This document shows positions 51,151-61,972 of a DNA stretch of 64,000 nucleotides, one piece after another. The stretch spans positions 2,810,501 through 2,874,500 of the forward strand of contig NZ_AP024086.1 in NCBI RefSeq assembly GCF_019703855.1. The letters run 5' to 3'. Under the pieces are notes generated by a model. That model searched no databases. It saw only the letters and a list, made by a program, of their open reading frames with translations, and was not told the DNA's origin. The stretch is from Desulfomarina profundi. GTDB taxonomy: Bacteria; Desulfobacterota; Desulfobulbia; Desulfobulbales; Desulfocapsaceae. Position 1 is the first letter of the stretch. Each line of letters begins with the position of its first letter. The translations under genes were made by a program, and so were the position numbers.

Positions 51151-51543
51151 TTATTGCGATAGAGATTCAAATGTTTTACGGATCGTCATCAGGTCAAAAG
51201 GCTTGGGAACGGCACCGACAAAACCATATTCATCAAAGTTTGTCATGACAGGATCAGTTGAATACCCGCTGGAGACCAGGACCTTCGCGTGTTGGTCAAC
51301 AGCAAGAATTTCACCGACGGCTTCCTTGCCACCCATTCCTCCGGGAACCGAAAGATCCATGATCACAAAGTCAAATCTTTCACCCTGATTCTGCTGTTCA
51401 ACATATTTCCTGACAGCTTCCTCTCCATCTTTTACATGGACAGCGTCATAGCCAATATATTTGAACAGATGAATAGCAATTTCTCCCACCATATCCTCAT
51501 CATCCATGATAAGGATCCGCCCCTTTTTTTCTTCGTCACCCAA
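51151..51543 (-). CDS. Single-domain response regulator (CheY-like)
   Basis: 130 aa consisting only of a receiver: ILIMDDEDMVGEIA, acceptor D in FVIMDLSVPGGMGG, T/S in VLVSSGYSTD and K in GAVPKPFD. The start is TTG 51543 with GGAGG about 12 bases upstream. Such proteins relay phosphate between kinases, for example to or from a hybrid kinase. It resembles the C-terminal receivers of PAS hybrid kinases like the neighbour at 46996. Confidence 0.9.
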   Translation of the reverse strand: MGDEEKKGRILIMDDEDMVGEIAIHLFKYIGYDAVHVKDGEEAVRKYVEQQNQGERFDFVIMDLSVPGGMGGKEAVGEILAVDQHAKVLVSSGYSTDPVMTNFDEYGFVGAVPKPFDLMTIRKTFESLSQ

Positions 51544-52043: not shown

Positions 52044-53813
52044 TTGAAAACCCGAACTCTTCCTTCAAAGAAAACAAGACAGACAGTTTTAATTGTCGCC
52101 GTAACCCTGATTTCCATCTGGCTGGTCCTCCTGCAGGTCGGTATTTTCACCAAGGCCCGCAGCATGTCCCGGATCAGGGAAATCGGTTCTTCCCGGGTCA
52201 ACCTCTATGCCCAGTCCCTCAGAACCAACCTGGAACAGTTTCGTCATCTTCCCTATGTGCTGGCAAGAGACAGACGTATTCACGACCTGCTGAACCTGGA
52301 ATTTGACGCGATACGCGTCAATCCCCACCTGGAAGATTTTGCCACCGTATCATCCACCATGATCTTCGTTCTCGACAGGGGAGGAACAACGGTGGCAACC
52401 AGTAACTGGAGAACCGACCAGGATCTGACTGGATTCAATTTCAGCTACCGCCCCTATTTCAAAGCTGCCGAAAAAGGGCTTTCGGGAGGATACTATGCTA
52501 TCGGCTCCCGCACAGGTAAACCTGGTTTCTTTATATCCTACCCAGTCCTTGAAGAAGGCAATTTTCTCGGTGTGGTAGTGGTCAAAGTCAATCTGGAAAC
52601 CATTCAACACATATGGAAAAAAAGCGGAGAAGCTGTGATTGTAAGTGATGCTTACGGCATTCTCTTTCTCAGCAGCAACCCGGACTGGAAATATAAATCT
52701 CTCCGCCCCCTCCCGCCCCACACTGCCAGACGGTTGCGTGAGGTCCAGTACCAGGGATACCCGCTTGTCACTCTGAAAATGGAGAGACAGAGTACCACAG
52801 GTGGAAATATCCTCCTCCTGGAAGGCAAGCAATACCTGGAACAATCCCTGCAATTACCCGAGTATGGCTGGCGCATCCACTACCTTACTGACCTTCGGGG
52901 AGTCAAAAGCAATGTCCACCTCGCCAGAACCGTAACCGCTGTTATTGCCGGATTTATCCTCTTTACTTTTCTTTTTTTCAGAGAACGCCGCCATAAACTG
53001 CGCTCCCGGGAAGAGGCAAGAAAAAGCAGAATAATAGAGGAAATAAACGAAAAACTCCTGCGGGAGATTGAGGAACATAAACAGACGGAAGACAACCTCC
53101 GGAAAATCCAGAAGGAACTGATTCAGGCGGGAAAACTGGCTGCATTGGGCCGAATGTCGGCGGCAGTTGCCCACGAACTGAATCAGCCGGTCACGGCTAT
53201 TCGTACTTTCGCGGCAAGCTGCAGGATCTTTCTTGAACGCAACCAGCCCAAACAGGTTCTGGAAAACCTGGATTTCATAACCGGACTGACGGAACGGATG
53301 GGCAGTATTACCGGCCAGCTTAAAATCTTTGCAAGAAAAAACAAAAGCGGCCATCATGTTGTTGATCTGGCAAAAATCATTGACAAGGTGCTCCTCTTTT
53401 CCGCCCCCCTGATTAAAGCGGGACATGTTAACGTAAACAGTGAACTTACTGAAAAGGGCCAGGCTCTTGTACGTGGTGACAGTCTGCATCTAGAACAGGT
53501 GATGAACAATCTCCTGAGCAACAGCCTTCACGCCATGGAGAAATCTTCCGGAAAAGAAATACATGTGAAGCTGTTCATCAAGGATGAAACTGTTATTCTT
53601 ACTGTCACCGACAGCGGGACAGGAATAGCGGGAGAGGCTATGGATTCACTTTTTGAACCGTTTTTTACGACCAAGGATATCGGCGACGGCCTGGGACTGG
53701 GACTCTCCATCACCTATGGGATTATCCAGGACATGGGAGGTTCAATTTCTGCAGAAAATATTGCGGGGAATGGAGCGTGCTTTACCATTCGTCTCCCTCT
53801 GGCCGTAACCTGA
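52044..53813 (+). CDS. DctB-like sensor histidine kinase
   Basis: 589 aa from TTG 52044, the first start after an in-frame stop. A membrane helix (VLIVAVTLISIWLVLLQVGI) leads to a double-PDC (Cache) periplasmic sensor of about 250 residues, including FSYRPYFKAAEKGLSGGYYA. A second helix is at about 290-312. A coiled coil precedes the H-box AAVAHELNQPVTAIRTFAA, and the ATPase domain has NNLLSNSLHAMEKSS and GDGLGLGLSITYGI. DctB proteins sense C4-dicarboxylates; here a TAXI binding protein gene follows, so the ligand may differ. It is paired with the DctD-like regulator 46 bp downstream. Confidence 0.92.
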   Translation: MKTRTLPSKKTRQTVLIVAVTLISIWLVLLQVGIFTKARSMSRIREIGSSRVNLYAQSLRTNLEQFRHLPYVLARDRRIHDLLNLEFDAIRVNPHLEDFATVSSTMIFVLDRGGTTVATSNWRTDQDLTGFNFSYRPYFKAAEKGLSGGYYAIGSRTGKPGFFISYPVLEEGNFLGVVVVKVNLETIQHIWKKSGEAVIVSDAYGILFLSSNPDWKYKSLRPLPPHTARRLREVQYQGYPLVTLKMERQSTTGGNILLLEGKQYLEQSLQLPEYGWRIHYLTDLRGVKSNVHLARTVTAVIAGFILFTFLFFRERRHKLRSREEARKSRIIEEINEKLLREIEEHKQTEDNLRKIQKELIQAGKLAALGRMSAAVAHELNQPVTAIRTFAASCRIFLERNQPKQVLENLDFITGLTERMGSITGQLKIFARKNKSGHHVVDLAKIIDKVLLFSAPLIKAGHVNVNSELTEKGQALVRGDSLHLEQVMNNLLSNSLHAMEKSSGKEIHVKLFIKDETVILTVTDSGTGIAGEAMDSLFEPFFTTKDIGDGLGLGLSITYGIIQDMGGSISAENIAGNGACFTIRLPLAVT

Positions 53814-53859
53814 ATCCATCACGGATCCAGGCGAAATGTAAAAAACCACAGGAAAACAT

Positions 53860-55234
53860 ATGACAGGCAAAGGAAGTGTCTACATTGTTGATGACGAAGA
53901 GAGCATGCGTGTTGCCGTGTCCCAATGGCTGACTCTCGCAGATTACCGGGTAGAATCTTTTTCCTCGGCACGGAAAGTTCTGGAAATCCTGGACGTGGAT
54001 TTTGATGGTGTCCTTGTCACTGACATCCGCATGCCGGACATGGACGGCATGGAACTGATGAAGAAGACTCTGGCCCTGGACCGGGAAATTCCCATTGTTC
54101 TGGTAACCGCCCACGGGGACATCCCCATGGCCGTTTCCGCCATGCGTGACGGGGCATATGATTTCATCGAAAAACCGTTTGAACCGGAGATGCTGCTGGA
54201 GACTGTCCGCCGGGCCGGAGAAAAAAGAAAACTGGTCCTTGAGAATCGAAAGCTCAGACAGTACCTGGAACACCCGGATAAAATCGAAAACAGACTGCTG
54301 GGAACAAGTGATGCCATCCAGTTTCTCCACCAGGAAATCAGGGATCTGGGCCCCACCGATGCCAGTGTCTTTCTCATTGGAGAAACCGGCTGCGGCAAAG
54401 AGGTTGTGGCCCGCTGTCTCCATGAAGTGAGTAACAGAAAAAAAGGTAAGTTCGTTGCGATCAACTGTGGCGCAATCCCTGAAACACTGTTTGAAAGCGA
54501 GCTGTTCGGCCATGAAGCCGGAGCGTTTACCGGGGCCACGGGTAGACGCATCGGCAAATTCGAACATGCCAACGGAGGCACCCTCTTTCTCGATGAAGTC
54601 AACTCCATGCCCTTGAATCTCCAGGTCAAGGTCCTGCGCGTTCTCCAGGAAAGAGAAATTGAACGGCTGGGCGCCAATACTCCCATCCCCATTGATATCC
54701 GCATTATCAGTGCAACAAACTGTGACCCACGCAAAGCATGCTCTGAAGGCAGGTTCAGGGAGGATCTCTATTATCGACTTAATGTGGCTGAAATCAACAT
54801 TCCTCCCCTGCGAAAACGACCGGGTGACATCCTGCTGCTTTTTGATTATTTCCTCCTGCGAAGCTCGGAAAAATACAACAGGGCACTGCCCCAGCTTACC
54901 GGCAACGCCATCGCCATGCTGATGGCCTATCCCTGGCCCGGAAATGTCAGGGAACTGAAAAATATTGCCGAACGTTACATTCTCTCTTCCCTGCCCCCGG
55001 AGGAAAGGATAGCCCATATTCTTCAACACACGGGAACAGGTATCAGCACAGCAAGTACCTCCCTTGCGGAACAGGCATCTAATTTTGAAAAATGTGTCAT
55101 TGACCAGGCCCTGCGCAGACACCGGGGAACATCTCGTCAGTCCTGGAAGAACTGGCCCTGCCCGCCGGACATTGAACCAGAAAATGCAGAACCATGGTCT
55201 TTCCAGAAAAGACTACCTGAATTCAGATAAATAA
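53860..55234 (+). pseudogene. DctD-like sigma-54 response regulator, C-terminus frameshifted twice
   Basis: Receiver (VYIVDDEESMRVAV, acceptor D in GVLVTDIRMPDMDG), then an AAA+ sigma-54 activator domain with Walker A GETGCGKE, the GAFTGA loop and GGTLFLDEVN. The Fis-type DNA-binding end is scrambled in the given frame (stop 55230). Adding one G at 55124-55127 and one C at 55161-55163 gives the family ending (RGNISSVLEELALPRRTL, NQKMQNHGLSRKDYL) and a stop at 55234. All other parts look intact. The partner is the kinase upstream; the target is probably the adjacent TAXI gene or a distant sigma-54 promoter. Confidence 0.85.
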
Positions 55235-55242
55235 AATTTGCC

Positions 55243-56289
55243 ATGCAAAACAGATATTTTTATTCTTTCACCACAACTTTTCTCCTCCTGCTCTTTTTTT
55301 CTCTTTCGGCCCCGCACCCGTCTCAGACAAAGCCACTCCCTCCTCTTCGAAAAAACCGCGACTATATTCTCACCACGGCCACCACGGGAGGAACATATTA
55401 TCCGGTGGGTATTGCCCTGGCGACCCTGACTAAAGTCAAACTCGAGCCAAAGTATAAAATTTCCCTTTCTGCCATCAGCTCCGCCGGCTCAGGGGAAAAT
55501 CTGAAACTCCTGCGGGAAAACGAGGCCCAGTTTGCCATCCTCCAGGGCCTTTACGGAGCCTGGGCATGGAACGGCAGCGGAGAGCTACAGCTCATCGGCC
55601 CCCAGAAACACCTGCGCTCCATCACCATGCTCTGGCAGAATGTTGAGCATTTTGCCATTCAATCTGATCTTGTCCGAACGGGAACAGCTGCAGACCTGAA
55701 GATGCTGAAAGGAAAACGATTTTCCATCGGCAGGAAAAATTCCGGCACCGAAGGATCGGGCCGTCATATTCTCCGCAGCCTGGGCTTCCAGCCTGACCGT
55801 GATTTTGTCCTGGTCAACATCGGTTACGGTGAAAGTGCTGAAAGCCTGCAGAACGGAACGATCGAAGGGATGAATATCCCGGCCGGACTCCCGGTAGGTG
55901 CCATTACAAGAGCATTTGCCGCCCTGGGCAAGGATATTACCATTCTTGATTTTACCGCCGAACAACTCAGAGCAATCAACAGGGGATACAACCTGTGGAG
56001 CCCCTACACTATCCCCGCAAATACTTATCCTGGTCAGGATTATGAGATCCACACCATTTCACAGCCAAATTTTCTGGCGGTCAGGGCTGATGTTGATGAC
56101 GATGCGGTTTACCGGATTGTAAAGATAATCTATGAAAACCTGAAATTTCTCAGCAATATCCATCCGGCGACAATGGACATGGATATCAGAAAAGCAGTAA
56201 AAGGGCTACCCTTTCCCCTCCATCCCGGTGCCGCACGGTTCTACCGTGAACAGGGGATTACACTTCCCGACAGATTAATCACAAAATAA
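55243..56289 (+). CDS. TAXI-family TRAP transporter solute-binding protein
   Basis: 348-aa periplasmic binding protein with a signal peptide (FTTTFLLLLFFSLSAPHPS). TAXI family marks are TTATTGGTYYPVGIALA, ISSAGSGENLKLL, GKRFSIGRKNSGTEGS and IEGMNIPAGLPVGAIT. TRAP systems take up organic acids with an ion gradient and need a membrane subunit, none of which is in the window. The start lies eight bases after the regulator, so binding protein and DctB/D-like pair form one unit; it may serve as a sensor accessory. Confidence 0.9.
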   Translation: MQNRYFYSFTTTFLLLLFFSLSAPHPSQTKPLPPLRKNRDYILTTATTGGTYYPVGIALATLTKVKLEPKYKISLSAISSAGSGENLKLLRENEAQFAILQGLYGAWAWNGSGELQLIGPQKHLRSITMLWQNVEHFAIQSDLVRTGTAADLKMLKGKRFSIGRKNSGTEGSGRHILRSLGFQPDRDFVLVNIGYGESAESLQNGTIEGMNIPAGLPVGAITRAFAALGKDITILDFTAEQLRAINRGYNLWSPYTIPANTYPGQDYEIHTISQPNFLAVRADVDDDAVYRIVKIIYENLKFLSNIHPATMDMDIRKAVKGLPFPLHPGAARFYREQGITLPDRLITK

Positions 56290-56480: not shown

Positions 56481-56660
56481 ATGGCTGAACCGAAAGACAT
56501 GTACCAATGCCAGACAGTAAACTGTGGATATATCTACAATCCGGACAAAGGTGACAGAAAAGGAAAAATCCCCAAGGGTACCAAATTCCAGGATCTTCCG
56601 GAAGACTGGAAATGCCCCATATGCGGGGCCAGTACCAAGGCATTCAAACCTCTTGGTTGA
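56481..56660 (+). CDS. Rubredoxin
   Basis: 59-aa electron carrier with one Fe(Cys)4 site, used by anaerobes with superoxide reductase, oxygen reductases and other oxidoreductases. The ligands are C9 and C14 ([12 protein letters not shown]) and C44 and C47 (WKCPICGAS). The first pair is spaced C-x4-C rather than the usual C-x2-C, a variant that I recall from some Desulfovibrio second rubredoxins. [18 protein letters not shown] and the DLPEDWKCP run are typical. AAAGGAG lies six to twelve bases before the ATG. Confidence 0.95.
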
Positions 56661-56670
56661 TAACCCTTTC

Positions 56671-56713
56671 CCTGCCGAACCAACCGTGCAGTCACTGTAA
56701 TCGGTTCGGCAGG
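56671..56713 (+). terminator. Hairpin after rubredoxin
   Basis: CCTGCCGAACC and GGTTCGGCAGG form a perfect 11-bp stem around a 21-base loop, ten bases past the stop. It is followed by ATTTGTC, so the U-tract is weak. Confidence 0.65.
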
Positions 56714-56766
56714 ATTTGTCAGGATTTTCTTGGCATTTTGTAACACAATGTGGAATACTGTTCCCT

Positions 56767-57867
56767 ATGAACAGCCAGCGTCCACTTTCCATAAACAACA
56801 GTCTTGTCCACGGTATCTGCAATTATCACTGCAGACTATGCGGCATAAAGAAACCTGATTACTCAGGTCCCAAGGAGTTCCAGCCTCTCACTGTCACCCG
56901 GAAACTTATCGACCGTATCCGGGAGGCAGTGCAGCAGGGAATCCACATCCGTTATCTCGCCAATGCCGGTGATGGTGAACCAACCCTCCACCCGGAATTC
57001 AACGAGCGGATGACTTTATTTGGAGAAATGATACGGAGCTGGCAGGCTCCCTCCATCCCGCCTCCTGAAGTTTCCGTGGTTACAAATGGATCACTCCTGA
57101 ACGAAAACAGCATCCTGGAGTCCATCACCGACAACAGACTCACCCTGATAATCTCCCTGCCCACCCTCAACCCGACGTCCTACGGCCTGATTATGGCCCA
57201 TGACGACACAAGAGGAAAGGCTCTTTTAGACACAGTACTGCCGGGTGTTGAACAGGCCATGGCCAAAAAGGCGGCGGGCAGACTCAGGCAACTTTATTTT
57301 CACATTTCCCCTCCGGAGGTTGACCTTATCCGGGCAGATTTTTCCGAAACAATTGACGGATTGACCCGCCTCGCCCGGAAAAACGGGATGCAGGAAATTA
57401 ACCTCATCCTCTTTCCGGCACCCAGTAACCGTACGGGACTGGTCACTGCTTCCGCCCCCCGCGTTGACATGTACCGCGACCTCTTCAAACAATATAACAA
57501 TACAGCCGCCAACCAGGTCACTGTCAGGATGAAACTGGTCCTCCACCGTTTCTTCCCCTCTCTCCTGGAAATTGTTGACCTTCTTCATCACTTCTCCTTC
57601 CCCTGTCTGTGGAATGGAAATTTCTTCATTACCCCCGACGGCAGTTCTATCTGCTGCAATGATCAATCCATCCAGACAATCCAGGGAAACATTCTCCACG
57701 ATTCCATTGCCACACTCATGGCAGCAAAAGAACAGTTTATGCCGGGCGCATCGTGCAGAAACTGCAACCAGTCCCCTCGCCACCTTCGCGGGTCACCGGA
57801 GGCCCGTATTTTTTCTCTTCTGGCTGGACTCAGAATTGCCTGCAACCGCATTTCCAATAAATTTTAA
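56767..57867 (+). CDS. Radical SAM protein
   Basis: 366 aa from ATG 56767 (MNSQRPLSINNSLVHGICNY). The cluster motif is CNYHCRLC (C-x3-C-x2-C) near residue 19; NAGDGEPTLHPEF is the SAM-binding GGEP-like segment. The C-terminal region has several cysteines (SSICCND, then GASCRNCNQSP), suggesting a second Fe-S cluster of the SPASM/Twitch type. SPASM enzymes modify peptides or small molecules; the substrate is unknown. The FeeM-like gene starts 20 bp after the stop, so the two are probably one operon. Confidence 0.88.
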   Translation: MNSQRPLSINNSLVHGICNYHCRLCGIKKPDYSGPKEFQPLTVTRKLIDRIREAVQQGIHIRYLANAGDGEPTLHPEFNERMTLFGEMIRSWQAPSIPPPEVSVVTNGSLLNENSILESITDNRLTLIISLPTLNPTSYGLIMAHDDTRGKALLDTVLPGVEQAMAKKAAGRLRQLYFHISPPEVDLIRADFSETIDGLTRLARKNGMQEINLILFPAPSNRTGLVTASAPRVDMYRDLFKQYNNTAANQVTVRMKLVLHRFFPSLLEIVDLLHHFSFPCLWNGNFFITPDGSSICCNDQSIQTIQGNILHDSIATLMAAKEQFMPGASCRNCNQSPRHLRGSPEARIFSLLAGLRIACNRISNKF

Positions 57868-57887
57868 ACAGGGAAACAGCTGCAAAA

Positions 57888-58691
57888 GTGACAAGACAGA
57901 ACAACAGAGTTCCCCCTCCCCCATGCGAAACAAAACTGGTTGAAACAAGGGAAGAACTGGAGGAAGCCCTGCGCCTCGTGTACCGGAAATACAATATTGC
58001 CGGATTTCAAAAAAAGAACAGGTCAGGAATGCGAATAAATTTCCACAATCTTCTTCCCACCAGTTATACACTTATCCGCAAAAACCATTCCAGGATTGAA
58101 GGAACCCTTACTGTGGTACAGGAATACCAGGGTCGCTTACCTTCAAGTGAACTGTTTGCAGAAGAAATAGAACAGGTTCGCCACGAGAATTCCCTGCTCT
58201 GTGAACTGTCCGGCCTGGCTATAAACACTTCATCCTTCAAGAACAGCAAAACCACGCTCCTCTCCCTTTTCAAGGCAGCATTTATCCTGGGATTTGACCT
58301 GCTGGGCTGTACGGACTTTTGTATGATGATCAACCCCTCCCACTGCAATTTCTACAGAAACGAGATGCAGTTTGAAAGAGTCGGACCTGTCAGGTATTAC
58401 GGGAAAGTAAACGATGCACCCGCAATCCTTCTGAAAATGGACCTTTTGACCTGTGAACAGCATTTTCTGGAAAAAAAACCTCGCCTTCATGACTATTTTT
58501 TTCTCCAGAAAAGAAAAACAGTCAGAAACAGGATTCTCTCCCTTTTGCCTCGACACAGAGAGCTGTTTAATAACCAACTGGCTCAACATTTTTTTGAAAT
58601 TGAACCTGTTATTCTCTCCAGCCTGACCGACCAGGAAAAAGAAACTCTTTCCCTTTATTTCCCAGATCTTACCAAAACCTTACTTGTCTAA
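57888..58691 (+). CDS. N-acyl amino acid synthase (FeeM-like) acyltransferase
   Basis: 267 aa from GTG 57888, a GNAT-fold protein of the FeeM-like group, which joins an acyl chain from acyl-carrier protein to an amino acid. Family pattern: TREELEEALRLVYRKYNIAG, RIEGTLTVVQEYQGRLPSSE, ELSGLAINTS, LFKAAFILGFDLLGCTDF, MINPSHCNFYRNEMQFERVG and NDAPAILLKMDL. The C-terminal 70 residues are extra and basic. The product cannot be told from sequence; the radical SAM neighbour suggests a modified amino acid or peptide as acceptor, an inference. Confidence 0.78.
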   Translation: MTRQNNRVPPPPCETKLVETREELEEALRLVYRKYNIAGFQKKNRSGMRINFHNLLPTSYTLIRKNHSRIEGTLTVVQEYQGRLPSSELFAEEIEQVRHENSLLCELSGLAINTSSFKNSKTTLLSLFKAAFILGFDLLGCTDFCMMINPSHCNFYRNEMQFERVGPVRYYGKVNDAPAILLKMDLLTCEQHFLEKKPRLHDYFFLQKRKTVRNRILSLLPRHRELFNNQLAQHFFEIEPVILSSLTDQEKETLSLYFPDLTKTLLV

Positions 58692-59330: not shown

Positions 59331-59423
59331 TGACCAGCGACAATTATAATTCCTTTTGACGACAATTAAATTTCCCGGAAAATTGTGATCTGATTATTCA
59401 TATTTCTCAAAGGAGGAATATGG

Positions 59424-60908
59424 ATGGTCACAGATATTCAGGTGAGGAAATTGAAGAAATACTTAAGTCAAGGGAAGACGTTGGAAGTAGCAGCGGCTAG
59501 AGCCGGCATGGATGAGAAAACCGGTCGCAAGTATAGAGATAATGGCAAATTGCCAAGTGAGATCAGTGCGGAGCGAGTGAGGGAGTGGCGAACTCGTAAA
59601 GATCCTTTTGAAGGTATATGGCCAGAGGTTTTACAATTTCTGGAAACTAATGAAGGTTTGGAAGCCAAAACTCTTTTTACCCATTTTCAAAGGATTTATC
59701 CCGGTTCTTTTGGAGATGGCCAGCTCCGCACGTTTCAACGTCGAGTAAAAACCTGGCGTTGTACAGAAGGTCCAGGACGTGAAGTTTATTTTCCCCAGGT
59801 GCATGTGCCTGCACGGTTGAGTCAGTCTGATTTTACAGATATGTCCCAATTACAGATCAGTATTGGTGGTCAGCCTTTTGATCACCTGATCTACCATTTT
59901 GTGCTGACATATTCGAACTGGGAGACAGGAACGATCTGTTTTTCCGAGAGTTTCGAAAGCCTGAGCGAAGGATTACAGAAGAGTCTATGGAAACTTGGCG
60001 GAGTTCCAGAACAACATCAAACAGACAGGTTGTCAGCTGCGGTGAATAAACCGGATAACCCGGAAGAGTTTACCCGTGGCTACCAGGGGCTTTTGGCCCA
60101 TTACAAATTGCAAGGCCGTAAAATCAATTCGTCAAGCCCCCACGAAAATGGTGACATTGAGCAGCGCCATCATCGTTTCAAGAAAGCCGTAGATCAGGCC
60201 CTGATGCTGCGAGGTAACCGGGATTTTACTACACGCAAGGAATATGAGTTATTTCTACAGAAGCTGTTTGCACAACTCAACTGCAACCGCCAGGAGCGCT
60301 TTCAAGAAGAACAGTCGATGTTGCGTCCACTGCCTTCGGGTAAGCTCGACACATGTACTCGTTTTGAAGTTCGAGTTGGTCCCAGCAGTACGATCAGAGT
60401 AAAGCACAAGGTTTACTCGGTGAATAGTCGACTTATCAAAGAAACAGTCACAGTGCGGCTGTATGCAGAGTATCTGGAGATCTGGTACGGTCAGAAACAT
60501 ATTGAGAATATCCCCAGAATACGAGGCGGTAGCAAACATTATATCCAGTACCGCCATATAATTGACTGGCTGGTTCGAAAACCCGGTGCATTTGAGAACT
60601 ACAGATACCGCAGTGATCTTTTTCCTACGAGCAGGTTCCGGGTTGCCTATGACTCTCTGCGCAAATTTCGTACCGTTACGGGAGCAGCAAAAGAATACTT
60701 ATCTATTTTACAGCTTGCTGCCCAAGATAATGAGACAGCTGTAGATGATGCCCTTCGTCATCTGATTGACCATGAAAAGAACATTGATTTTGCCCAGGTA
60801 AAAACACTGCTTGTCTCTGGTAAACCGGTTGAACCGATTACCAATATTTCTGTCCAGACTGTTGCCCTCACAGGCTATGATCAACTCTTACAGGAGGGTT
60901 GCAGATGA
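59424..60908 (+). CDS. istA: IS21-family transposase IstA, copy 2
   Basis: 494 aa, complete. The N-terminal HTH (KTLEVAAARAGMDEKTGRKY) precedes the integrase core with D in SQSDFTDM, D in HQTDRLSAAV and E in NGDIEQRHHRF. A C-terminal beta-barrel-like part follows (RFEVRVGPSSTIRVKHKVYS). ATG 59424 follows AGGAGGA. It is the intact reference for the frameshifted copy 1. Confidence 0.96.
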   Translation: MVTDIQVRKLKKYLSQGKTLEVAAARAGMDEKTGRKYRDNGKLPSEISAERVREWRTRKDPFEGIWPEVLQFLETNEGLEAKTLFTHFQRIYPGSFGDGQLRTFQRRVKTWRCTEGPGREVYFPQVHVPARLSQSDFTDMSQLQISIGGQPFDHLIYHFVLTYSNWETGTICFSESFESLSEGLQKSLWKLGGVPEQHQTDRLSAAVNKPDNPEEFTRGYQGLLAHYKLQGRKINSSSPHENGDIEQRHHRFKKAVDQALMLRGNRDFTTRKEYELFLQKLFAQLNCNRQERFQEEQSMLRPLPSGKLDTCTRFEVRVGPSSTIRVKHKVYSVNSRLIKETVTVRLYAEYLEIWYGQKHIENIPRIRGGSKHYIQYRHIIDWLVRKPGAFENYRYRSDLFPTSRFRVAYDSLRKFRTVTGAAKEYLSILQLAAQDNETAVDDALRHLIDHEKNIDFAQVKTLLVSGKPVEPITNISVQTVALTGYDQLLQEGCR

Positions 60909-61666
60909 GTTCAACCGATAATCGAATTATCCTGGATGCGTCTCTTAAAAAGCTTTATCTGTCAACTATCCGAGCCTGTTACCAGGAGGAGGCGGATTTG
61001 GCGAGAAAGGAATCACTAAGCTATGAATCATACCTTCAGGAACTGGTTGTGCGGGAGTGTGAAGAAAGACGCCATAAACGCATTACCAGATATTTGCGAG
61101 AATCCAGACTGCCCCTGGAAAAAAACTTAGCTTCGTTTGAAATGGATCGGCTTCCGGCCAAACTGAGCGGCTTTGTCAATAGTTTGCTGGAAGGTTCTTT
61201 TCTTGACAGGTGTGAAAACATACTAGCTTTTGGAAACCCAGGTAGTGGAAAAACCCATCTGCTCTGTGCCATTGCCCAGGAACTGATTAACAAGGATAGG
61301 CGTGTTTTCTTTTCTCCGTGCAGTCTGCTGGTGCAAAATCTGCTGGTGGCCAAAAAGGAGCTTGTTCTTCCAAGATTTCTGAAAAAACTTGCCAAGTATG
61401 ATGCCATACTGATCGACGATATCGGCTATGTCCAGCAAAGCCGAGAAGAAATGGAAGTGCTCTTTACCCTTCTTGCGTATTGTTATGAACGGAACAGTAT
61501 CATGCTAACCAGCAATTTACCATTTTCACAGTGGGAGAAGATATTTAAAGATCCAATGACTACGGCTGCAGCGATAGACCGGCTTGTGCATCATAGCGTA
61601 ATACTGGAACTTAATCTTGATAGCTACAGACTGGAAAAAGCAAAACAAAGCCTTGAGGAAAATTAA
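60905..61666 (+). CDS. istB: IS21-family helper ATPase IstB, copy 2
   Basis: 253 aa from ATG 60905, overlapping the istA stop, with GGAGGG ahead. Walker A is GNPGSGKTHL, Walker B ILIDDIGYV, and sensor segment SIMLTSNLPFSQWEKIF. Same protein as copy 1. Confidence 0.96.
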   Translation: MSSTDNRIILDASLKKLYLSTIRACYQEEADLARKESLSYESYLQELVVRECEERRHKRITRYLRESRLPLEKNLASFEMDRLPAKLSGFVNSLLEGSFLDRCENILAFGNPGSGKTHLLCAIAQELINKDRRVFFSPCSLLVQNLLVAKKELVLPRFLKKLAKYDAILIDDIGYVQQSREEMEVLFTLLAYCYERNSIMLTSNLPFSQWEKIFKDPMTTAAAIDRLVHHSVILELNLDSYRLEKAKQSLEEN

Positions 61667-61739
61667 TAATCACAGAATAGGGGGCTCTGCCCCAACCCCC
61701 GAGGTTTAACGCATTGTGGCCATGAGGATGAAGAAAGAA

Positions 61740-61769
61740 AAGACCGGGCAAATCCTTATACCCGGTCTT
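61740..61769. terminator. Hairpin in the 3' tail of IS21 copy 2
   Basis: Same perfect 9-bp stem (AAGACCGGG / CCCGGTCTT) as in copy 1, located 74 bp past istB. It may limit read-through between the element and its flank. Confidence 0.5.
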
Positions 61770-61972
61770 CATCCTTACGGCACTCATCTCGGCGCTCGGG
61801 TCGCTCCTCAGCGTTGCCCTATCCTCCGGATGAGTACAAATAAGTTACATTTTAGATGAGGACACTGCAACAGAAACAGAAAAAGCAATGAAATATTATT
61901 GCGTATTATTATGTGGTTAAGGCCGGAATTATAATTGTCGCCAGCCGGGAATTATAATTGTCGTTGATTACA

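Follow-up and report, generated by a model that had tools for sequence, protein, structure and literature searches.

What does a radical SAM enzyme do beside an acyltransferase of the FeeM type? The question is raised by two genes of Desulfomarina profundi (contig NZ_AP024086.1 of assembly GCF_019703855.1), which we analysed within a stretch of 64,000 nucleotides (positions 2,810,501 to 2,874,500 of the forward strand, hereafter the window, numbered from its first letter). The first gene encodes a radical SAM protein, rSAM1, and the second, after a gap of 20 bp on the same plus strand, an N-acyl amino acid synthase of the FeeM type. An earlier model reading of the DNA (the original prediction) had grouped this pair with a rubredoxin gene, at which its range begins, and all three genes are present as described. 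We find that the coupling of rSAM1 to FeeM is real and conserved, since the two are fused or adjacent in 16 of the 16 genomes in which rSAM1 was found (the window's own plus 15). We propose, with a probability of about 0.6, that they form the core of a previously undescribed and probably anaerobic pathway to a modified fatty-acyl amino acid.

rSAM1 is confined to the window's own genome in 297 genomes of its phylum (Thermodesulfobacteriota), in 257 genomes of its order and in 144 relatives. This genome is a single contig of 4.3 Mb with one rSAM1 match (at E limits of 1e-15 and 1e-10) and one FeeM match. Single-sequence searches with rSAM1 of genome contigs, viral contigs, plasmids and phages found no relatives, and neither did a repeated search of the viral contigs with the rSAM1 alignment A2. 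We then used a FeeM alignment to scan one genome for each of 84,980 species with a single peptide pattern, which detects only FeeM genes matching that pattern, and obtained 77 stretches and 51 FeeM loci. The six loci closest to the window protein all belong to Fermentibacterota (Ca. Aegiribacteria, Ca. Sabulitectum and Ca. Fermentibacteraceae). An rSAM1 homolog lies directly before FeeM in all six and in none of the remaining 45. No rSAM1 was found anywhere in the 43 genomes behind those 45 loci with a profile that was positive in Fermentibacterota; the two loci left out of this genome-wide check are second contigs of assemblies already included.

Is the pairing kept within Fermentibacterota? 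The gene-neighbourhood search that the original prediction had proposed recovered the pair in 15 genomes of this phylum. Among 42 Fermentibacterota genomes, rSAM1 is present in 15, FeeM is present in the same 15, and 27 carry neither (one-sided Fisher p = 1e-11, uncorrected for shared ancestry). Because the same genomes hold both genes, a chance pairing is excluded. In nine of the 15, rSAM1 and FeeM are encoded in one complete open frame of 655–682 amino acids (aa), and a tenth, G452, has a shared frame as far as the contig end, with FeeM in two pieces on two contigs; the other five have separate adjacent frames. Pfam detected both domains in the single shared-frame protein scanned (P0010). 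That rSAM1 and FeeM are fused in some genomes and adjacent in others argues strongly that they act in one pathway. The original prediction had staked itself on the two genes being neighbours in related genomes: the close relatives searched have no rSAM1 at all, and it is distant genomes that retain the pair.

The window FeeM is intact and belongs, by sequence and by fold, to the N-acyl amino acid synthase family. It scores 118.6 bits against PF21926 (gathering score 27), and its predicted model (predicted local distance difference test, pLDDT, 88.7) matches FeeM itself (2g0b) at Z 22.0 with a root-mean-square deviation of 2.7 over 182 residues, and the acyl-homoserine-lactone (AHL) synthases BjaI and LasI at Z 16.8 and 16.5. 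All residues invariant in the FeeM alignment are retained. With 2g0b and the environmental N-acyl amino acid synthases it shares the family PF21926 and the fold; it differs from them in a helical C-terminal tail and in its radical SAM partner, fused or adjacent. This tail reaches beyond the family model and aligns with the Fermentibacterota proteins, to which the window FeeM is 40–45% identical over 244–250 residues. At the other loci compared, identity is at most 41% over 177 residues, one 46-residue fragment aside. In a tree of 89 FeeM rows, with identical rows merged and the G452 row (L126, 120 aa) excluded as too short, the window protein and 14 Fermentibacterota rows form one clade with support of 100/100. 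An exosortase/PEP-CTERM-linked acyltransferase was rejected as its identity, since its only NCBIfam hit at E 0.1 is NF011425, at 64.7 bits against 1337. Synthases of the FeeM kind use fatty acyl chains bound to acyl carrier protein (acyl-ACP; PMC8762209), and FeeM would here acylate the amine of an amino acid from acyl-ACP.

What kind of enzyme is rSAM1? It scores 31.1 bits against the Pfam radical SAM model PF04055 (cut-off 29.5), and the homologs P0007, P0008 and P0010 score 28.8 (just under the cut-off), 34.7 and 33.1, respectively. Its start agrees with the homolog starts in alignment A2. The cysteines C18, C22 and C25 of the radical SAM motif are conserved in 15 of 16 aligned rows, the sixteenth (L054) ending at a contig edge. 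The extra C-terminal cysteine clusters of the original prediction correspond to C280, C296, C297, C330 and C333, which are invariant in all 16 rows, the window's row counted, and which would ligate an auxiliary cluster. SPASM domains follow a seven-cysteine pattern, CX9-15GX4C-CX2CX5CX3C-C, and hold two auxiliary clusters, and the twitch domain holds one, with four cysteines after the barrel (CX9-15GX4C ... CX2C). The spacing in rSAM1 (C280-X11-G-X4-C297 and C330-X2-C333, plus C296) resembles that of such a truncated SPASM, or twitch, domain. A full SPASM domain was rejected, as PF13186 gave 14 bits against 21.5 and only the first part of the pattern and the CX2C are present and conserved.

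rSAM1 resembles BtrN, MoaA, anSME and other SPASM/twitch enzymes in having a cysteine region C-terminal to its radical SAM barrel, and the four-cysteine site of BtrN is nearest to its pattern. BtrN is a twitch enzyme that performs a two-electron oxidation and carries its auxiliary cluster on four cysteines; such clusters are thought to accept an electron (both points from PMC9012708). rSAM1 differs from these enzymes in having no family-level match, with no NCBIfam cut-off reached, and in its link to an acyltransferase. Its predicted model has a mean pLDDT of 66 and is poor in the cysteine regions (below 50 at residues 276–286, 294–304 and 324–347). The model matches SuiB, anSME, ChlB, SkfB and MoaA at Z 15.3–17.5 (best Z 17.5) and also the small-molecule enzymes DesII and BlsE, with viperins close behind at Z 15.3; families missing from this list carry no meaning. 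Foldseek returned a single match at E <0.001, GDGT-MAS (7tol).

Two other identities for rSAM1 bear on these matches. The peptide and protein enzymes among the best of them (SuiB, ChlB, SkfB and anSME) would suit a system like those of ribosomally synthesised and post-translationally modified peptides, in which rSAM1 modifies a peptide and FeeM acylates the peptide N-terminus. We regard this as very unlikely. Only 17 residues precede the first cluster cysteine, and the model aligns to SuiB from SuiB residue 101 onward; rSAM1 therefore lacks the N-terminal part of this peptide enzyme, which makes a peptide substrate unlikely. The spacing of the genes also speaks against it (20 bp to FeeM, 106 bp upstream with a hairpin, tightly packed operons in Fermentibacterota), with no systematic search for a precursor gene made. 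Of the "amino acid or peptide" named as substrate in the original prediction, the peptide is thus the part that fares badly. Alternatively, rSAM1 could be a viperin-like antiviral nucleotide enzyme that adjoins FeeM by chance. The viperin family NF038283 is its best NCBIfam hit, PADLOC labels it pVip, and viperin structures match its model at Z about 15. Viperin identity was nevertheless rejected, as the hit covers residues 14–137 only and stays, at 32.8 bits, under the cut-off of 180, and strict co-occurrence and fusion with FeeM make a chance neighbour of this kind extremely improbable.

How may rSAM1 and FeeM work together? We propose that FeeM would move a fatty acyl chain from acyl-ACP (or coenzyme A) onto the amine of an amino acid and that rSAM1 would form a 5'-deoxyadenosyl radical and abstract a hydrogen from the same small molecule, its extra cluster taking the second electron. 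The net result would be the oxidation, for example the desaturation, of an N-acyl amino acid (or of its amino acid precursor) without O2, or a related radical step. A likeness exists in the Oxz/Tyz systems (OxzA/OxzB; TyzA/TyzB/TyzC), in which, according to PMC10404671, the acyltransferase is near to FeeM and the AHL synthases, the nearest structures to TyzA including FeeM, and the N-acyl amino acid is then oxidised and cyclised by partner proteins. In the Tyz pathway, the N-acyl-tyrosine made by TyzA is desaturated by a flavin oxidase that uses O2 and is cyclised by a ThiF protein (PMC10404671). Because the Tyz desaturation is O2-dependent, an anaerobe would need another oxidation route, and rSAM1 may be the radical counterpart of the O2-dependent Oxz/Tyz oxidases. 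The partners differ, however: a ThiF cyclase and an O2-dependent oxidase of the nitroreductase family there, radical SAM enzymes, a FIST protein and a kinase here. Membership in Oxz/Tyz was rejected for the window, where Pfam found neither ThiF nor nitroreductase among 11 proteins at 51.1–62.4 kb, the pair included. It was rejected for Fermentibacterota too, where neither occurs among the other three operon genes or in the flanks (7 genes at 5 loci only).

The reaction order could also be reversed. rSAM1, working for example as a dehydrogenase, mutase or decarboxylase, would first convert an amino acid (free or bound to a carrier) or some other amine, and FeeM would then cap the unusual amine with a fatty acyl chain. 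This order is a tentative possibility: rSAM1 is the first of the genes and forms the N-terminal part of the fused protein, and its structural matches include the small-molecule enzymes MoaA, DesII and BlsE. But the sequence of genes and domains does not determine that of the reactions, and the Tyz pathway acylates first and oxidises second (PMC10404671).

In Fermentibacterota, the pair stands at the head of a tightly packed operon. Where contigs permit, rSAM1-FeeM is followed by a second radical SAM gene (rSAM2), then by a FIST gene and last by the gene of a PAS hybrid histidine kinase. rSAM2 is found at 14 of 14 loci with sequence past FeeM (incomplete in some). Where the sequence reaches far enough, FIST is present at 13 of 13 loci and the kinase at 11 of 11, some copies being cut by contig ends. 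In the L054 proteins, rSAM2 scores above the cut-offs of both a B12-binding (PF02310) and a radical SAM (PF04055) domain; FIST N and FIST C domains were identified in the FIST protein, and PAS, HisKA, ATPase and receiver domains in the kinase. The best NCBIfam match of rSAM2 is TIGR04072, the "lipid biosynthesis B12-binding/radical SAM protein" (rSAM_ladder_B12), yet at 321.4 bits it stays under the equivalog cut-off of 360, and it is absent at the window locus. rSAM2, being of the B12 type, would then probably methylate or otherwise edit the product of rSAM1 and FeeM.

Some copies of rSAM2 are irregular. Only a C-terminal fragment is present in L127 (7372–7899), two pieces in L138 (8865–9739) and a C-terminal end in another frame in L134 (3960–5530), with the neighbours seemingly intact, which may reflect either decay or assembly error; in L130 the contig end cuts the gene. 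In L137 (158–2473), FeeM shares an open frame of 772 aa with rSAM2, not with rSAM1, so fusion is possible in either direction.

What would the last two genes do? FIST proteins with a partner histidine kinase are known as nitric oxide sensors, NosP being a FIST haem protein, and the operon FIST protein is likewise encoded beside a histidine kinase (PMC12570481). It differs from NosP in being coupled to biosynthetic genes, and NosP identity was ruled out by a score of 30.6 bits against NF041558, far under the cut-off of 450. The FIST protein and the hybrid kinase would read a related signal. Because FeeM has the fold of signal synthases (LuxI-type) and the last two genes of the operon form a sensor pair, the whole operon may be a self-contained signalling system, an anaerobic counterpart of AHL quorum sensing, in which the fused radical SAM-FeeM protein and rSAM2 make a fatty-acyl amide and the FIST protein and the kinase are its receptor. 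The window pair would in that case produce a related signal but have no receptor for it. We hold this signalling reading to be doubtful.

The window locus holds only the first two operon genes, unfused. Because it is a two-gene version, the product of the window organism would be without the rSAM2 step. How did the pair arrive there? The window rSAM1 is 57–63% identical to Fermentibacterota rSAM1 over 240–366 residues. Three relatives with the closest TAXI gene (78, 71 and 70% identical) keep the kinase, regulator and TAXI block that lies upstream in the window. The stretches fetched from them contain no rubredoxin, rSAM1, FeeM or HU gene, and the genes after TAXI differ in each. Since the pair is near-absent in the order, missing at this site in the three relatives and in a clade with Fermentibacterota, lateral gain is the simplest account, and the window pair was probably acquired by such a transfer. 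Base composition did not settle the matter (GC fraction 0.518 for rSAM1, 0.44 for FeeM and 0.467 for the window).

A lateral arrival could also have left a non-functional remnant beside an insertion element. Three of the five operon functions (rSAM2, FIST and kinase) are missing at the window locus, no FIST homolog was matched in the genome, and the best rSAM2 match there is a 463-aa frame elsewhere, 31–40% identical. The pair is followed, 0.64 kb downstream, by an IS21-type element, and the block is missing at the site in the three relatives examined. Against decay, neither frame is broken, none of the eight motif cysteines or of the invariant FeeM residues is lost, and an rSAM1 identity of about 60% to another phylum suggests continued selection, so that we judge a remnant to be unlikely.

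Several points weigh against the proposed pathway for a modified fatty-acyl amino acid. Substrate and product are putative for every family member. Because no NCBIfam cut-off was reached, the reaction class of rSAM1 rests on a modest model and the cysteine pattern, and viperins, which are not oxidases of this kind, are near-equal on that model (Z 15.3) and give the best NCBIfam hit. The window genome has no FIST homolog or close rSAM2, and its pair may work differently or be decaying. Finally, bearing on the direction of transfer, the window rSAM1 is the only one found outside Fermentibacterota, and the tree leaves the window FeeM in an unresolved fork with the Fermentibacterota rows, with a long-branch warning.

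Is the rubredoxin a third member of the unit? The original prediction placed it with the pair, and the comparison did not support this association. The 15 Fermentibacterota loci (frames of at least 50 aa, E 1e-3) and the 51 FeeM loci of the species scan yielded no rubredoxin homolog, and for this non-conservation it was rejected as a redox partner. In the gap between rubredoxin and rSAM1 (56661–56766), a hairpin separates the two genes: the RNA fold is far stronger than in shuffled sequences (z-score -4.6) and, together with a perfect inverted repeat, suggests a terminator. A standard terminator scan picked another stem instead, at 56717–56735 (5 sites against 4.0 in shuffles), and the same scan gave a promoter-like site ahead of rSAM1 at 56730–56759. 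The rubredoxin is thus probably not part of the pair. The features of the locus are collected in Table 1; several copies of a terminal repeat (GCGACAATTATAATTCC type) lie at each end of the IS21-type element.

Table 1. Features of the rSAM1-FeeM locus, in window coordinates.
Feature	Position	Strand	Details
rSAM1, radical SAM enzyme with twitch/SPASM-like C-terminal cysteine region	56767..57867	+	366 aa, ATG start, PF04055
rSAM1 CX3CX2C cluster motif, codons C18 to C25	56818..56841	+	
rSAM1 CX11GX3CC ... CX2C, codons C280 to C333	57604..57765	+	predicted ligands of one auxiliary Fe-S cluster
FeeM-type N-acyl amino acid synthase	57888..58691	+	267 aa, GTG start, PF21926
Rubredoxin	56481..56660	+	59 aa, PF00301 73 bits; judged a neighbour outside the pair
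Perfect 11-bp inverted repeat, 21 nt between arms	56671..56713	+	in rubredoxin-rSAM1 gap; likely rubredoxin terminator and unit boundary
Sensor kinase (dCache), sigma-54 response regulator and TAXI solute-binding protein block	52044-56289		upstream of rubredoxin, rSAM1 and FeeM
Small stand-alone response regulator receiver	51151-51543	-	PF00072, 54.4 bits
HU-type gene			downstream of FeeM, before IS21-type element; Pfam
IS21-type insertion element, inverted terminal repeats	59335..61966	+	downstream of pair and HU gene; context only
IS21 transposase frame	59424-60908	+	PF22483
IS21 istB frame	60899-61666	+	PF01695 IstB_IS21

Other FeeM genes keep other company. An rSAM1 homolog is absent from 20 FeeM neighbourhoods of the window's phylum, some of which hold ThiF/nitroreductase, MMPL, LolA-like or rSAM2-like proteins. 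At L034 (567–10935, window's phylum) and L098 (30–8032, titled Proteobacteria bacterium), genes for ThiF proteins and an MMPL exporter lie about 8 kb or less from FeeM, as does a B12 radical SAM gene that resembles rSAM2 (about 40% identity with Fermentibacterota rSAM2). The ThiF protein of L034 has a nitroreductase match, and a LolA-like gene is also present there. These two loci look like an Oxz/Tyz-like lipid cluster with an added radical SAM step. At L042 (6977–11199), one of two FeeM genes has an rSAM2-like B12 radical SAM gene as its divergent neighbour, at a distance of about 340 bp. A FeeM homolog on a 3.1-kb contig of a Heimdallarchaeota bin (L100, 2–559) groups with Thermodesulfobacteriota rows, reflecting transfer or a binning error.

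The original prediction knew of no named pathway with this arrangement, and we too recognised no description of the radical SAM-FeeM pair, its natural fusion or the five-gene operon in titles and abstracts of the open-licence literature. The component families are already known; the coupling, the fusion and the operon appear to be the new part. If the proposed pathway is correct, it would be an O2-free route to modified acyl amino acids, predicted from a fusion in a phylum that keeps the pair in 15 of 42 genomes. The window pair, a two-gene construct in a one-contig genome, makes it directly testable, and the linked FIST and kinase genes would give a handle on the small molecules that FIST domains sense.

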